Notes under the pieces: model-generated
What the model saw: only the letters and a program-made list of their open reading frames with translations
Told to the model about the DNA's origin: nothing
Database searches by the model: none
Program-made: the position numbers and the translations under genes
NCBI RefSeq assembly: GCF_019966575.1
Contig: NZ_JAINFK010000010.1
Coordinates: 1-49,468, forward strand
DNA: 49,468 nt
Source of the DNA: Oricola cellulosilytica
GTDB taxonomy: Bacteria; Pseudomonadota; Alphaproteobacteria; Rhizobiales; Rhizobiaceae
Reading direction: 5' to 3'
Shown: piece after piece, positions 13,405 through 17,848 of the stretch
Position numbering within the stretch: the stretch's first letter is position 1
Layout: each line of letters begins with the position of its first letter

Positions 13405-13413
13405 GGGAGGAGG
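13405..13413 (+). promoter_or_regulatory. Extended Shine-Dalgarno of the GMC oxidoreductase, complementary to the sRNA loop
   Basis: GGGAGGAGG, six bases before the GTG start at 13420. This nine-base ribosome-binding site decides the start over the ATG at 13432. It is perfectly complementary to the CCUCCUCCC loop carried three times by the minus-strand sRNA encoded just past the 3' end of this gene. Confidence 0.7.
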
Positions 13414-13419
13414 CGCCAG

Positions 13420-15045
13420 GTGGGGGAAGCGATGGAATTCGACTATGCGATCGCCGGTGGGGGGTCGGCCGGATCGGCGCTTGCCGCGCGCCTGAGCGAA
13501 GACCCCAAGGTGACTGTCTGCCTGATCGAGGCGGGCGGTGAAGGCAAGGATCTCTTGATCCGGGCGCCGCTCGGCGTCATCACCATGTTGCCGGGATACG
13601 GCAAGTTCAACAACTGGGCTTATCAGACCGTGCCGCAGCCGGGACTGAACGGACGCAGAGGCTACCAGCCGCGCGGGCGCGCTCTTGGCGGATCAAGCGC
13701 CATCAATGCCATGCTGTATGTCCGCGGCCACCCTTCTGATTACGACGGCTGGGCGGCCGATGGATGCACCGGCTGGGCTTGGGACGATGTGCTGCCCTAC
13801 TTCCGCAATTCGGAGCGGAACGAACGTGGTGGCGACAGATTGCATGGCGCGGATGGTCCCTTGCATGTCTCGGAGCAGAAATCCGTGCGACCGGTCTCGC
13901 AGGCGTTCGTCGACGCCTGTACACAAATGCAGCTTTCCCGCAATGCCGATTTCAACGGTCCTGAGCAGGAAGGGGCTGGGATTTATCAGGTTACGCAATT
14001 CCACGGAGGCAAGCGTGAAGGAGAGCGCTGCTCGGCCGCTGCAGCCTATCTCCATCCGGTCATGAACCGGCCGAACTTGAAGGTCGTCACGAGGGCGTTG
14101 GTCTCCCGGGTTGAGTTCGACGGGCGGCGCGCCACAGGGCTCGCATATCGCAAGGGGACGGACGAAATGACCGTCGCCGCGCGGCGGGAGGTGATCCTCT
14201 GTGGCGGCGCATTCAATTCTCCGCAATTGCTGATGCTGTCAGGGATCGGGCCGGCCGCGGAACTGAGACAACACGGGATAGAGGTCCGGCATGATTTGCC
14301 TGGGGTCGGCAAGAACCTGCAGGATCATGTCGACTTCGTTCTCGGATGGAAAACCCGCGACACAGACGTGCTCGGCCTTGGCCCTATTGGCGCGTGGAAG
14401 ATTGTCCGCGACATCGCGCGCTGGCGCCGTGACGGCAGTGGCATCGTTGCGTCGCCCGGTGCGGAGGCGGGCGCGTTCGTCAGGTCCGACCCCTCACAGA
14501 TCAGGCCTGATCTTCAACTGCATTTCGTGGCGGCACTGGTTGACGATCATTCGCGAAAACTGCATCTCGGTTACGGTTACTCCTGCCATGTTTGCGTTCT
14601 CCGGCCGCATTCACGCGGGGAGGTTTCCTTGGCCAGCGGCGATCCTTCCGCCGCCCCGCTCATCGATCCGAAGTTTCTGTCCGACGAACGCGATGCCGCT
14701 TTGCTGCTCCACGGCGCCAAGATCACCCGCCGCATCCTGGAGGCGCCGGCACTATCACCTTACCGCTTGCGAGAGGTTTATCTAGACGGCGTCAAGACGG
14801 ATGACGAGTTGATGGCCCATATCCGGTCACGTGCTGACACGGTCTATCACCCTTCCGGCACTTGCAAGATGGGTCTCGACGAGAGGTCGGTGGTGGACCC
14901 GCAATTGCGTGTATACGGCGTGAACAGCCTCCGTGTCGTCGACGTATCAATCATGCCGAACTTGATCGGTGGGAACACCAATGCCCCGGCAATGATGATC
15001 GCGGAGAAGGCGGCCGATTTGATAAGGGAGGCTGCGGCCGCGTGA
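13420..15045 (+). CDS. GMC-family FAD-dependent oxidoreductase (choline dehydrogenase-like)
   Basis: 541 residues. The N-terminal Rossmann FAD motif is DYAIAGGGSAGSALAARLSE with the acidic ribose-binding end VCLIEAGGEG. GMC signature 1 is seen as PRGRALGGSSAINAMLYVRGHPSDYDGW and signature 2 as CGGAFNSPQLLMLSGIGP. The C-terminal catalytic region reads YHPSGTCKMG...VYGVNSLRVVDVSIMPNLIGGNTNAPAMMIAEKAADLI; the His of YHPSGTC and the Asn of GNTNAP correspond to active-site positions of the family. It oxidises an alcohol to an aldehyde, but the substrate (choline, polyethylene glycol or other alcohol) cannot be told. No betB or betI is nearby, so betA is not assigned. GTG start with a strong GGGAGGAGG site; ATG 13432 is the alternative. 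Confidence 0.92.
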   Translation: MGEAMEFDYAIAGGGSAGSALAARLSEDPKVTVCLIEAGGEGKDLLIRAPLGVITMLPGYGKFNNWAYQTVPQPGLNGRRGYQPRGRALGGSSAINAMLYVRGHPSDYDGWAADGCTGWAWDDVLPYFRNSERNERGGDRLHGADGPLHVSEQKSVRPVSQAFVDACTQMQLSRNADFNGPEQEGAGIYQVTQFHGGKREGERCSAAAAYLHPVMNRPNLKVVTRALVSRVEFDGRRATGLAYRKGTDEMTVAARREVILCGGAFNSPQLLMLSGIGPAAELRQHGIEVRHDLPGVGKNLQDHVDFVLGWKTRDTDVLGLGPIGAWKIVRDIARWRRDGSGIVASPGAEAGAFVRSDPSQIRPDLQLHFVAALVDDHSRKLHLGYGYSCHVCVLRPHSRGEVSLASGDPSAAPLIDPKFLSDERDAALLLHGAKITRRILEAPALSPYRLREVYLDGVKTDDELMAHIRSRADTVYHPSGTCKMGLDERSVVDPQLRVYGVNSLRVVDVSIMPNLIGGNTNAPAMMIAEKAADLIREAAAA

Positions 15046-15053
15046 CATCGGAT

Positions 15054-15096
15054 AAGAAAAGACCGGGCGCGCTGGGAGGAGGATAGCGGCCCGGTC
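15054..15096 (-). terminator. Intrinsic terminator formed by sRNA hairpin 3
   Basis: GACCGGGC pairs with GCCCGGTC, with four inner pairs (CGCT/AGCG) and one unpaired base; the minus strand continues TTTTCTT (15060-15054). It ends the sRNA and, read the other way, lies 15 bases past the stop of the GMC gene, where it could also slow convergent transcription. Confidence 0.8.
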
Positions 15097-15183
15097 TCGG
15101 TGATGAGAAGGCTGGGAGGAGGATAGCCTTCGCATTCTAAATCTCGAACTGCCGTGGGAGGAGGATACGGCGTGTTCTTGATG
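15054..15183 (-). ncRNA. Three-hairpin CCUCCUCCC-loop sRNA (cuckoo / alpha-r14 type)
   Basis: Read on the minus strand, about 130 nt contain three hairpins, each displaying the same 11-base loop AUCCUCCUCCC on a different stem. Hairpin 1: 15151-15171, 5-bp stem GCCGU/ACGGC, extended outward by GAAC/GUUC. Hairpin 2: 15107-15131, 7-bp stem. Hairpin 3: 15061-15096, 12 pairs with one bulge, followed by TTTTCTT. Stems differ in sequence while base pairing and loops are conserved, so this is selected RNA structure rather than a DNA repeat. Known relatives are the cuckoo RNAs of Rhodobacter (CcsR) and alpha-r14 sRNAs of rhizobia, whose loops mimic the anti-Shine-Dalgarno sequence and are stress-related. 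No DUF1127 gene, the frequent neighbour of cuckoo RNAs, is present. The 5' end is inferred from the promoter. Confidence 0.8.
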
Positions 15184-15188
15184 GATTG

Positions 15189-15217
15189 TATATGCGTCCC
15201 TGCAGTCCGAAATTCAA
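15189..15217 (-). promoter_or_regulatory. Putative promoter of the cuckoo-type sRNA
   Basis: Minus-strand TTGAAT (15217-15212), a 17-base spacer, and CATATA (15194-15189). It resembles rhizobial sRNA promoters and also the RpoH-type pattern TTGAA...CATNTA. The predicted start is about 15182-15183, about 12 bases before the first hairpin. Confidence 0.55.
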
Positions 15218-15225
15218 TCATTTAT

Positions 15226-15238
15226 TGTGCAATGCACA
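15226..15238. promoter_or_regulatory. Palindrome TGTGCA-A-TGCACA upstream of the sRNA promoter
   Basis: A perfect 6-bp inverted repeat around one base, 8 bases upstream of the predicted -35. The position suits an activator or repressor site; LsrB, encoded just upstream, is one candidate, but this is only inferred from proximity. Confidence 0.4.
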
Positions 15239-15303
15239 TATGCAAAAAACGCATAGCTGCTTGAGGAGCGTGCTTGCTCTTTACGCCGGGCCGAAAATCC
15301 CGC

Positions 15304-16218: not shown

Positions 16219-17848
<1,630 letters not shown>

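Follow-up and report, generated by a model that had tools for sequence, protein, structure and literature searches.

The 49,468-nt stretch of Oricola cellulosilytica DNA analysed here (the window) probably encodes, in the AbcR1 slot beside lsrB, a trans-acting sRNA of alpha-r14 architecture that is activated by LsrB and blocks ribosome-binding sites through three exposed loops. The type of RNA is known; its use at the lsrB position is the unexpected part. What is seen in the sequence comprises three predicted-open loops, a promoter, a box, the gene order, conservation in relatives and the lack of an AbcR signature. AbcR1 and NfeR1 are two LsrB-dependent rhizobial sRNAs that have been treated as separate families, and an AbcR promoter slot yielding an NfeR1-shaped RNA raises the direct question of whether the two are interchangeable and share a targetome. 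The Oricola lineage also lets one ask how an sRNA changes family under a constant regulator. No sRNA work on Oricola was found in the open-licence literature searched, and no alpha-r14-type RNA was seen at the lsrB position in the accessible parts of that literature.

The RNA Gene and Its Predicted Fold

The RNA gene is located on the lsrB strand, about 120 nt downstream of lsrB. Its 5' end near 15182 was deduced from the −10 box, and its 3' end was placed in the T-run (Table 1).

Table 1. Features of the lsrB locus in the window.
Feature	Position	Strand	Basis or remark
GMC-family (choline dehydrogenase-like) oxidoreductase gene (gmc)	13420..15045	plus	GTG start 13420 or ATG 13432; convergent with the sRNA gene
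GGGAGGAGG ribosome-binding site of gmc, proposed target	13405..13413	plus	perfect 9-nt complement to the loops
sRNA gene, ~126 nt	about 15182 to 15057	minus	ar14 covariance match 15056-15184, fold, orthologues
Hairpin 1	15146..15177	minus	CCUCCUCCC loop motif 15156-15164; predicted fold
Hairpin 2	15103..15135	minus	loop motif 15114-15122; predicted fold
Hairpin 3	15059..15098	minus	loop motif 15074-15082, then TTTT; aSD loop and putative intrinsic terminator combined
Sigma-70 type promoter TTGAAT-N17-CATATA	15189..15217	minus	−35 15217-15212, −10 15194-15189; compared with orthologue and AbcR promoters
Putative LsrB/VtlR box TGCGTTTTTTGCATATGTGCATTGC	15229..15253	minus	GCAT-N3-TG-N3-T core 15243-15231
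lsrB/vtlR orthologue, LysR-type regulator, 298 aa	15304..16200	minus	Pfam HTH_1 and LysR_substrate; trxB-lsrB order as in A. tumefaciens
trxB, thioredoxin reductase, start approximate	16219..17196	minus	NCBIfam TIGR01292 above cut-off

The 11-mer GGGAGGAGGAT is present in the window exactly three times (plus strand, from 15074, 15114 and 15156). Across 200 dinucleotide shuffles of the window, exact copies averaged 0.005 per shuffle, and three copies within 200 nt on one strand never occurred (0/200). The minus-strand RNA is predicted to fold into three hairpins at −47.8 kcal/mol, compared with −27.5 +/- 3.6 for shuffled sequences (z −5.7; 0/200 as good), each of which exposes AUCCUCCUCCC. All three CCUCCUCCC motifs are unpaired in the predicted fold with a probability of at least 0.99, and the three loops carry an identical TATCCTCCTCCCA.

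Since the plus strand also folds stably (z −4.5), the strand was not chosen by folding alone; the choice fell on the minus strand, which fits the covariance model, carries promoter and T-run and agrees with the orthologues. A first-pass annotation of the same DNA had proposed three minus-strand hairpins with identical loops over 15054-15183, an own promoter TTGAAT-N17-CATATA and a T-run after the last hairpin. This outline holds: the span is accurate to within a few bases, the promoter was located, and the last stem continues into TTTTC, so that hairpin 3 also looks like a terminator. A generic promoter and terminator scan of the window detected neither element, and it is blind here because it requires a −10 box resembling TATAAT and accepts terminator loops of up to 8 nt, whereas this one has 11 nt.

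Family Assignment

The alpha-r14 RNAs, a family founded on NfeR1 of S. meliloti, are described as having three hairpins with CCUCCUCCC unpaired in each and highly variable stems (PMC10746234, PMC7143759). Hfq-independent action in trans by blocking ribosome-binding sites is a further trait of the family. By sequence and predicted fold, the window RNA has the three hairpins with unpaired CCUCCUCCC. At the gathering threshold, Rfam gave no match anywhere in the window; at a relaxed threshold, RF02344 (ar14) matched the RNA over its full length with 51.9 bits (E 7.9e-9; cut-off 58.8), and the CcsR1 model RF02791 scored 26.4 bits, below its cut-off of 65.3. The cuckoo/alpha-r14 type suggested in the first pass is supported by the sequence. 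Across the GTDB family, RF02344 was found at E <= 1e-4 in 146 of the 151 genomes searched, above the cut-off in 137 of them and with up to nine matches per genome. The lsrB-linked RNAs of Ahrensia marina (74.2 bits) and of genome G103 (66.2 bits) pass the ar14 cut-off. In Oricola, the window copy and the other seven complete lsrB-linked ones fall below it (48.5-58.1 bits); the Rfam cut-off therefore misses lsrB-linked ar14-type copies in this genus.

The earlier annotation had regarded two loops as usual and three as novel. As described in PMC10746234, three loops are the alpha-r14 norm, and a four-hairpin group has also been published, together with a Rhodobacter form that has two (PMC3927594). 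The main novelty claim therefore falls, and three loops are ruled out as a new feature.

The RNA combines traits of three described groups. With alpha-r14/NfeR1 RNAs (RF02344) it shares three hairpins, CCUCCUCCC in all loops, a length of about 123 nt, the full-length covariance match and, as predicted from the sequence, an own sigma-70-type promoter with a putative LsrB-type site. Unlike them, it is linked to lsrB and remains below the Rfam cut-off in Oricola, and its stems are different from those of the two ar14 copies on contig C8 of the same genome. It resembles the CcsR/cuckoo RNAs (RF02791, CIN1 locus) in its CCUCCUCCC loops and differs from them in having an own promoter, three loops and, as the first pass had correctly pointed out, no DUF1127 partner, the upstream gene being lsrB. 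With AbcR1/AbcR2 (alpha-r15, RF02345) it has in common the slot downstream of trxB-lsrB on the same strand, a similar promoter layout with an LsrB/VtlR-type box, and anti-Shine-Dalgarno (aSD) motifs as active parts. The differences from AbcR1/AbcR2 are that the window's genome has no ar15 match, that the second motif GTTCCCCTCTGGAGG is missing from the RNA, that one aSD motif lies inside the terminator loop, and that it has three equal loops where AbcR has two aSD motifs.

Conservation of the Structure

The compensatory stem changes that the first-pass annotation had named as a test are present when G103 and two Ahrensia species are included, but hardly so inside Oricola. Among the eight Oricola copies, which stem from five genomes and include four from a single tandem array in G005, only 1 of 33 pairs is changed on both sides, and 52 of 500 shuffles are as high; the stems vary too little here for the covariation test to be informative. 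In an alignment of 12 copies (the eight from Oricola, the truncated record L050, two Ahrensia species and G103), which was fitted to the covariance model and hence favours a pairing signal, 20 of 33 pairs show changes in both partners. None of 500 shuffles is as high, 97.3% of cells pair, and sliding the partners abolishes the signal. The loop letters of the lsrB-linked copies are kept while the stems change. RNAalifold on a MAFFT alignment recovered the terminator helix together with a different helix, and neither hairpin 1 nor hairpin 2; applied to diverged copies, this combination misplaced the middle helix and rendered the AbcR structure poorly. The covariance-model alignment was therefore used instead.

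The lsrB Slot Across the Family

In A. tumefaciens, trxB-vtlR is reported to be followed by abcR1 and abcR2 (PMC7486931). For S. meliloti, AbcR1/2 are placed between lsrB and SMc01226, and AbcR1 requires LsrB (PMC8844928). A survey of about 1.4 kb downstream of lsrB covered 140 family genomes and 140 of 150 lsrB places, with four stretches shorter at contig ends; G000 (the window's genome), G002, G005, G080, G093, G095, G097, G114, G153 and the second lsrB place of G057 lie outside it. The motif GTTCCCCTCTGGAGG, invariant in an alignment of 15 AbcR copies, was found with at most two mismatches in 95 of the 140 flanks, and no copy of it was seen in the window's lsrB flank even with three mismatches allowed. 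Among 182 flank records, which include named loci and duplicates (L014/L022, L015/L036, L017/L023, L066/L024, L199/L033), 24 hold arrays of at least two aSD hairpins and 58 hold neither an array nor the AbcR motif. Only L064 has both, the motif with three mismatches and probably by chance.

Across 20 lsrB loci chosen by hand and non-randomly (19 surveyed flanks and the Oricola locus L019), RF02345 scored above its cut-off in 14 and ar14 in two, namely G103 and Ahrensia marina with the scores given above; neither did so in four. The 20 genomes of one further comparison were likewise hand-picked rather than random. At E <= 0.001, RF02345 had no match in any of the six Oricola-genus genomes, in a search in which AbcR-bearing controls were silent as well. 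At E <= 0.01, it exceeded the cut-off in all four AbcR-bearing control genomes (G014, G022, G129, G133) and gave no match in G000, G103, G113 and G091; one weak sub-cut-off match each appeared in G002 and G005 (27.6 and 27.7 bits, E about 0.002). RF00519 was tried as an AbcR proxy and rejected in favour of RF02345 and the signature motif, because many of the matches listed were distant from lsrB.

No AbcR signature was found in the Oricola and Ahrensia lsrB loci examined, and three-loop RNAs are found there instead. A complete lsrB-linked RNA is present in five of the six genus genomes (G000, G001, G002, G003 and G005); the ar14 search reported none in G004, and in the related record L050 the RNA ends at the contig end after two loops. 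G005 carries four tandem lsrB-linked copies with a period of about 256 bp (L242, G005:C1:2128000-2132400, 1501-2460), and every copy has a separate LsrB-type box and promoter; the array holds 12 aSD loops in about 900 bp. Other lineages have lsrB-slot RNAs that combine two aSD-like motifs with a plain terminator (L033, L034, L035, L181, L196, L172 and L169). These are possible undescribed AbcR variants, and L033-L035 score below both the ar14 and the ar15 cut-offs. G119 has an AbcR-like RNA whose second motif is altered to GTTCCCTCCGAAGG.

Origin of the Three-Loop RNA

A tree of LsrB and TrxB was built from 45 selected rows. Of these, 34 were classed by RNA type (G091 and G057 as two-motif by eye from folds) and 11 were left unclassed, including L030 and L050, which are ended by contig ends, and L028 and L038, whose second motif was recognized by eye and not by script. 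The eight classed three-loop loci, from Oricola, the two Ahrensia species and G103, form one clade (100/99), to which G091, bearing two aSD motifs, is sister (98/96). G091 and Oricola have a GACCGGG...CCCGGTC terminator stem in common. AbcR bearers surround the three-loop clade and are found in Stappiaceae as well, and two-motif RNAs recur in two further lineages (e.g., L033-L035; G057/G083/G092). Four changes suffice to explain the three RNA states on this tree, in which several deeper forks are weak (e.g., 80/57).

A model of the Oricola lsrB-linked RNA scored G103 at 53.1 bits and Ahrensia at 47.0 and 44.6 bits. On the same model, the other Oricola ar14 copies reached 51.4 and 45.6 bits for the best DUF1127-type copies and 38.0 to 18.1 bits for the rest. 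When 66 further loci were searched, G091 came out on top with 37.5 bits; two-motif RNAs came next (15-23 bits), interspersed with some unrelated loci.

Two histories may account for this pattern. An ordinary NfeR1/alpha-r14 copy may have entered the lsrB locus by recombination and taken the place of AbcR, which is a serious possibility, if somewhat short of an even one. It would leave the function unchanged and is compatible with the explanation preferred here. As the slot RNAs of G103 and Ahrensia score no higher than the best DUF1127-type Oricola copies, RNA similarity alone marks no separate line, and replacement is about as likely as remodelling in place. The identical loops of the window RNA and the multicopy nature of ar14 in the family also favour it, and a joint exchange of promoter and RNA is conceivable because NfeR1 promoters are likewise described with an LsrB site (PMC10746234). 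Against replacement, both C8 copies sit behind DUF1127 genes, have different stems and show by eye no such box just upstream, and G091, with its two motifs, Oricola-like terminator stem and top model score, fits a stepwise change.

That G091 carries two motifs on a similar terminator stem means that AbcR may instead have been remodelled in place. More tentatively, the LsrB-controlled AbcR1 gene of the Oricola/Ahrensia lineage may have been converted where it stood, one loop after another, into an alpha-r14-like RNA with three equal aSD loops, the last of them in the terminator; this single RNA would then span the roles of both AbcR1 and NfeR1. G091 would then be a surviving intermediate and the four-gene array of G005 an amplification, the wiring having been kept and the RNA family changed.

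Promoter, Putative LsrB-Type Box and Regulator

The core of the box, GCATATGTGCATT, fits the VtlR/LsrB consensus GCAT-N3-TG-N3-T; with transcription from 15182 it would lie at −61 to −49. Consensus and box position were taken from PMC8844928 and PMC7486931, the former of which places the S. meliloti AbcR1 box likewise. Binding of LsrB/VtlR to AbcR1 and NfeR1 promoters is reported as demonstrated (PMC8844928, PMC10746234, PMC7486931). The arrangement TGC-N6/7-GCAT-N3-TG-N3-TGC ... CATAT is common to the AbcR promoters downstream of lsrB and the window promoter. A regular expression for it, written after inspection of these same promoters, matches 80 of the 182 flank records, AbcR bearers among them. 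The promoters of Oricola and G103 fit the pattern; those of the two Ahrensia species (L024, L025, L066) do not match it and have GCAT-N3-AG as core.

The longer box pattern has an exact match in the window at 15229-15253, and with one mismatch allowed it is reached in 30 of 100 shuffles. Taken by itself, the 13-nt core is not significant, being expected 5.5 times in the window by chance and observed 7 times, so the argument for the box rests on its position and conservation. By sequence, the window copy keeps an AbcR1-style promoter with a putative LsrB/VtlR-type box.

The promoter also bears on whether the RNA might be cut from the 3' UTR of lsrB, as CcsR RNAs are from a DUF1127 transcript, rather than transcribed on its own. 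Such processing would suit an RNA located so close behind lsrB on the same strand, and maturation of CcsR RNAs by RNase E, together with the DUF1127 protein, is described (PMC10253847). It is nonetheless unlikely, given that the Oricola loci examined have a promoter with an LsrB-type box in the stretch that separates lsrB from the RNA and that the array in G005 repeats promoter and box with every one of its four copies.

The upstream gene had been called a redox regulator in the first pass. A LysR-type regulator gene does adjoin, and it can be named LsrB/VtlR, an identity that the first pass had overlooked together with that of the AbcR1 slot; the redox role is uncertain here, because a cysteine matching A. 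tumefaciens C273 is absent. Mutation of C273 in A. tumefaciens LsrB is reported to raise H2O2 sensitivity (PMC11975290). The LsrB proteins of Oricola and the two Ahrensia species keep Cys142 (taken as A. tumefaciens C144) and have no cysteine at 271, the residue that corresponds to C273 as judged by equal spacing. A cysteine at 271 is found in 15 of the 45 LsrB rows, which are 10 of the 15 AbcR bearers, three two-motif rows and two unclassed ones. With the single cysteine of the window LsrB, the signal sensed in Oricola may differ.

Candidate Targets and Proposed Mechanism

Transcription of the RNA, its activation by LsrB, the blocking of ribosome-binding sites and the named targets are what we infer from these features. 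LsrB (VtlR), made from the gene directly upstream, would most likely bind the box and activate the RNA. Any of the three exposed CCUCCUCCC loops could then pair with GGGAGGAGG-like ribosome-binding sites, and this pairing would block translation and lower the mRNA. The three loops may be redundant or may serve several mRNAs simultaneously. NfeR1 is reported to have been shown to pair at ntrB and to silence through three aSD motifs that act redundantly (PMC10746234).

The GMC oxidoreductase gene, convergent with the sRNA gene, ranks first among the candidate targets. Its GGGAGGAGG stands 6 nt before the GTG start and has the lowest loop duplex energy (−20.1 kcal/mol) among the starts of 92 mechanical ORFs of at least 150 aa in the window; eight of its nine bases are kept in L022 and L023, the two relatives examined. 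Outside clear ar14 RNA loci, G000 contains 38 exact GGGAGGAGG sites. Seven of these, gmc included and two of them doubtful, are followed after 5-11 nt by a potential start codon of an ORF that is at least 60 aa long, a count that may include chance matches. Counted over both strands, the genome has 44 copies of GGGAGGAGG and 48 of its reversed form, so the motif shows no excess. Further candidate targets would be a glpK-like gene and two acyl-CoA ligase-like genes: by Pfam, L220 encodes an FGGY kinase and reads as glpK, and L206 has an AMP-binding domain; L225 reads by eye as a second acyl-CoA ligase.

The loops could alternatively act as a decoy that mimics the 16S aSD and titrates mRNAs globally, with no specific targets. 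Their motif is a plain aSD, and purine-rich Shine-Dalgarno sequences are widespread. This alternative is improbable, however, as the exact 9-nt partner is found at only those 44 genome places and NfeR1 is described as acting on defined mRNAs such as ntrB (PMC10746234). That the locus holds no sRNA gene and is mere terminator between lsrB and gmc is hardly credible, for although it lies between two converging genes and folds stably on both strands, the T-run, promoter and ar14 match are found on the minus strand only, the loop letters are kept while the stems change, and O. indica has the RNA with no gmc homologue detected beside it.

Other Related RNAs in the Genome

The window's genome (3.70 Mb) has four ar14 matches. 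The two stronger copies (75.4 and 60.6 bits) are in tandem on contig C8, each immediately preceded by a DUF1127 gene (Pfam PF06568, E 2e-15 and 2.6e-13), which is the cuckoo/CIN1 arrangement; in L240 (1406-2150) they appear as two tandem DUF1127-plus-ar14 units with stems unlike those of the window copy. The fourth match, at C7:41552, is weak (36.6 bits). It is a CT-rich two-hairpin match (L005, C7:41552-41635) directly upstream of a frame that reads MPTSINPATGETIKEIA by eye. A distant AbcR relative persists elsewhere in the genome, a suhB-type RNA of the AbcR clan (RF00519) with a TTTCCTCCC motif on the minus strand of contig C11 (L006, C11:74405-74481). A TTGACT...CATATC sequence is found upstream of it.
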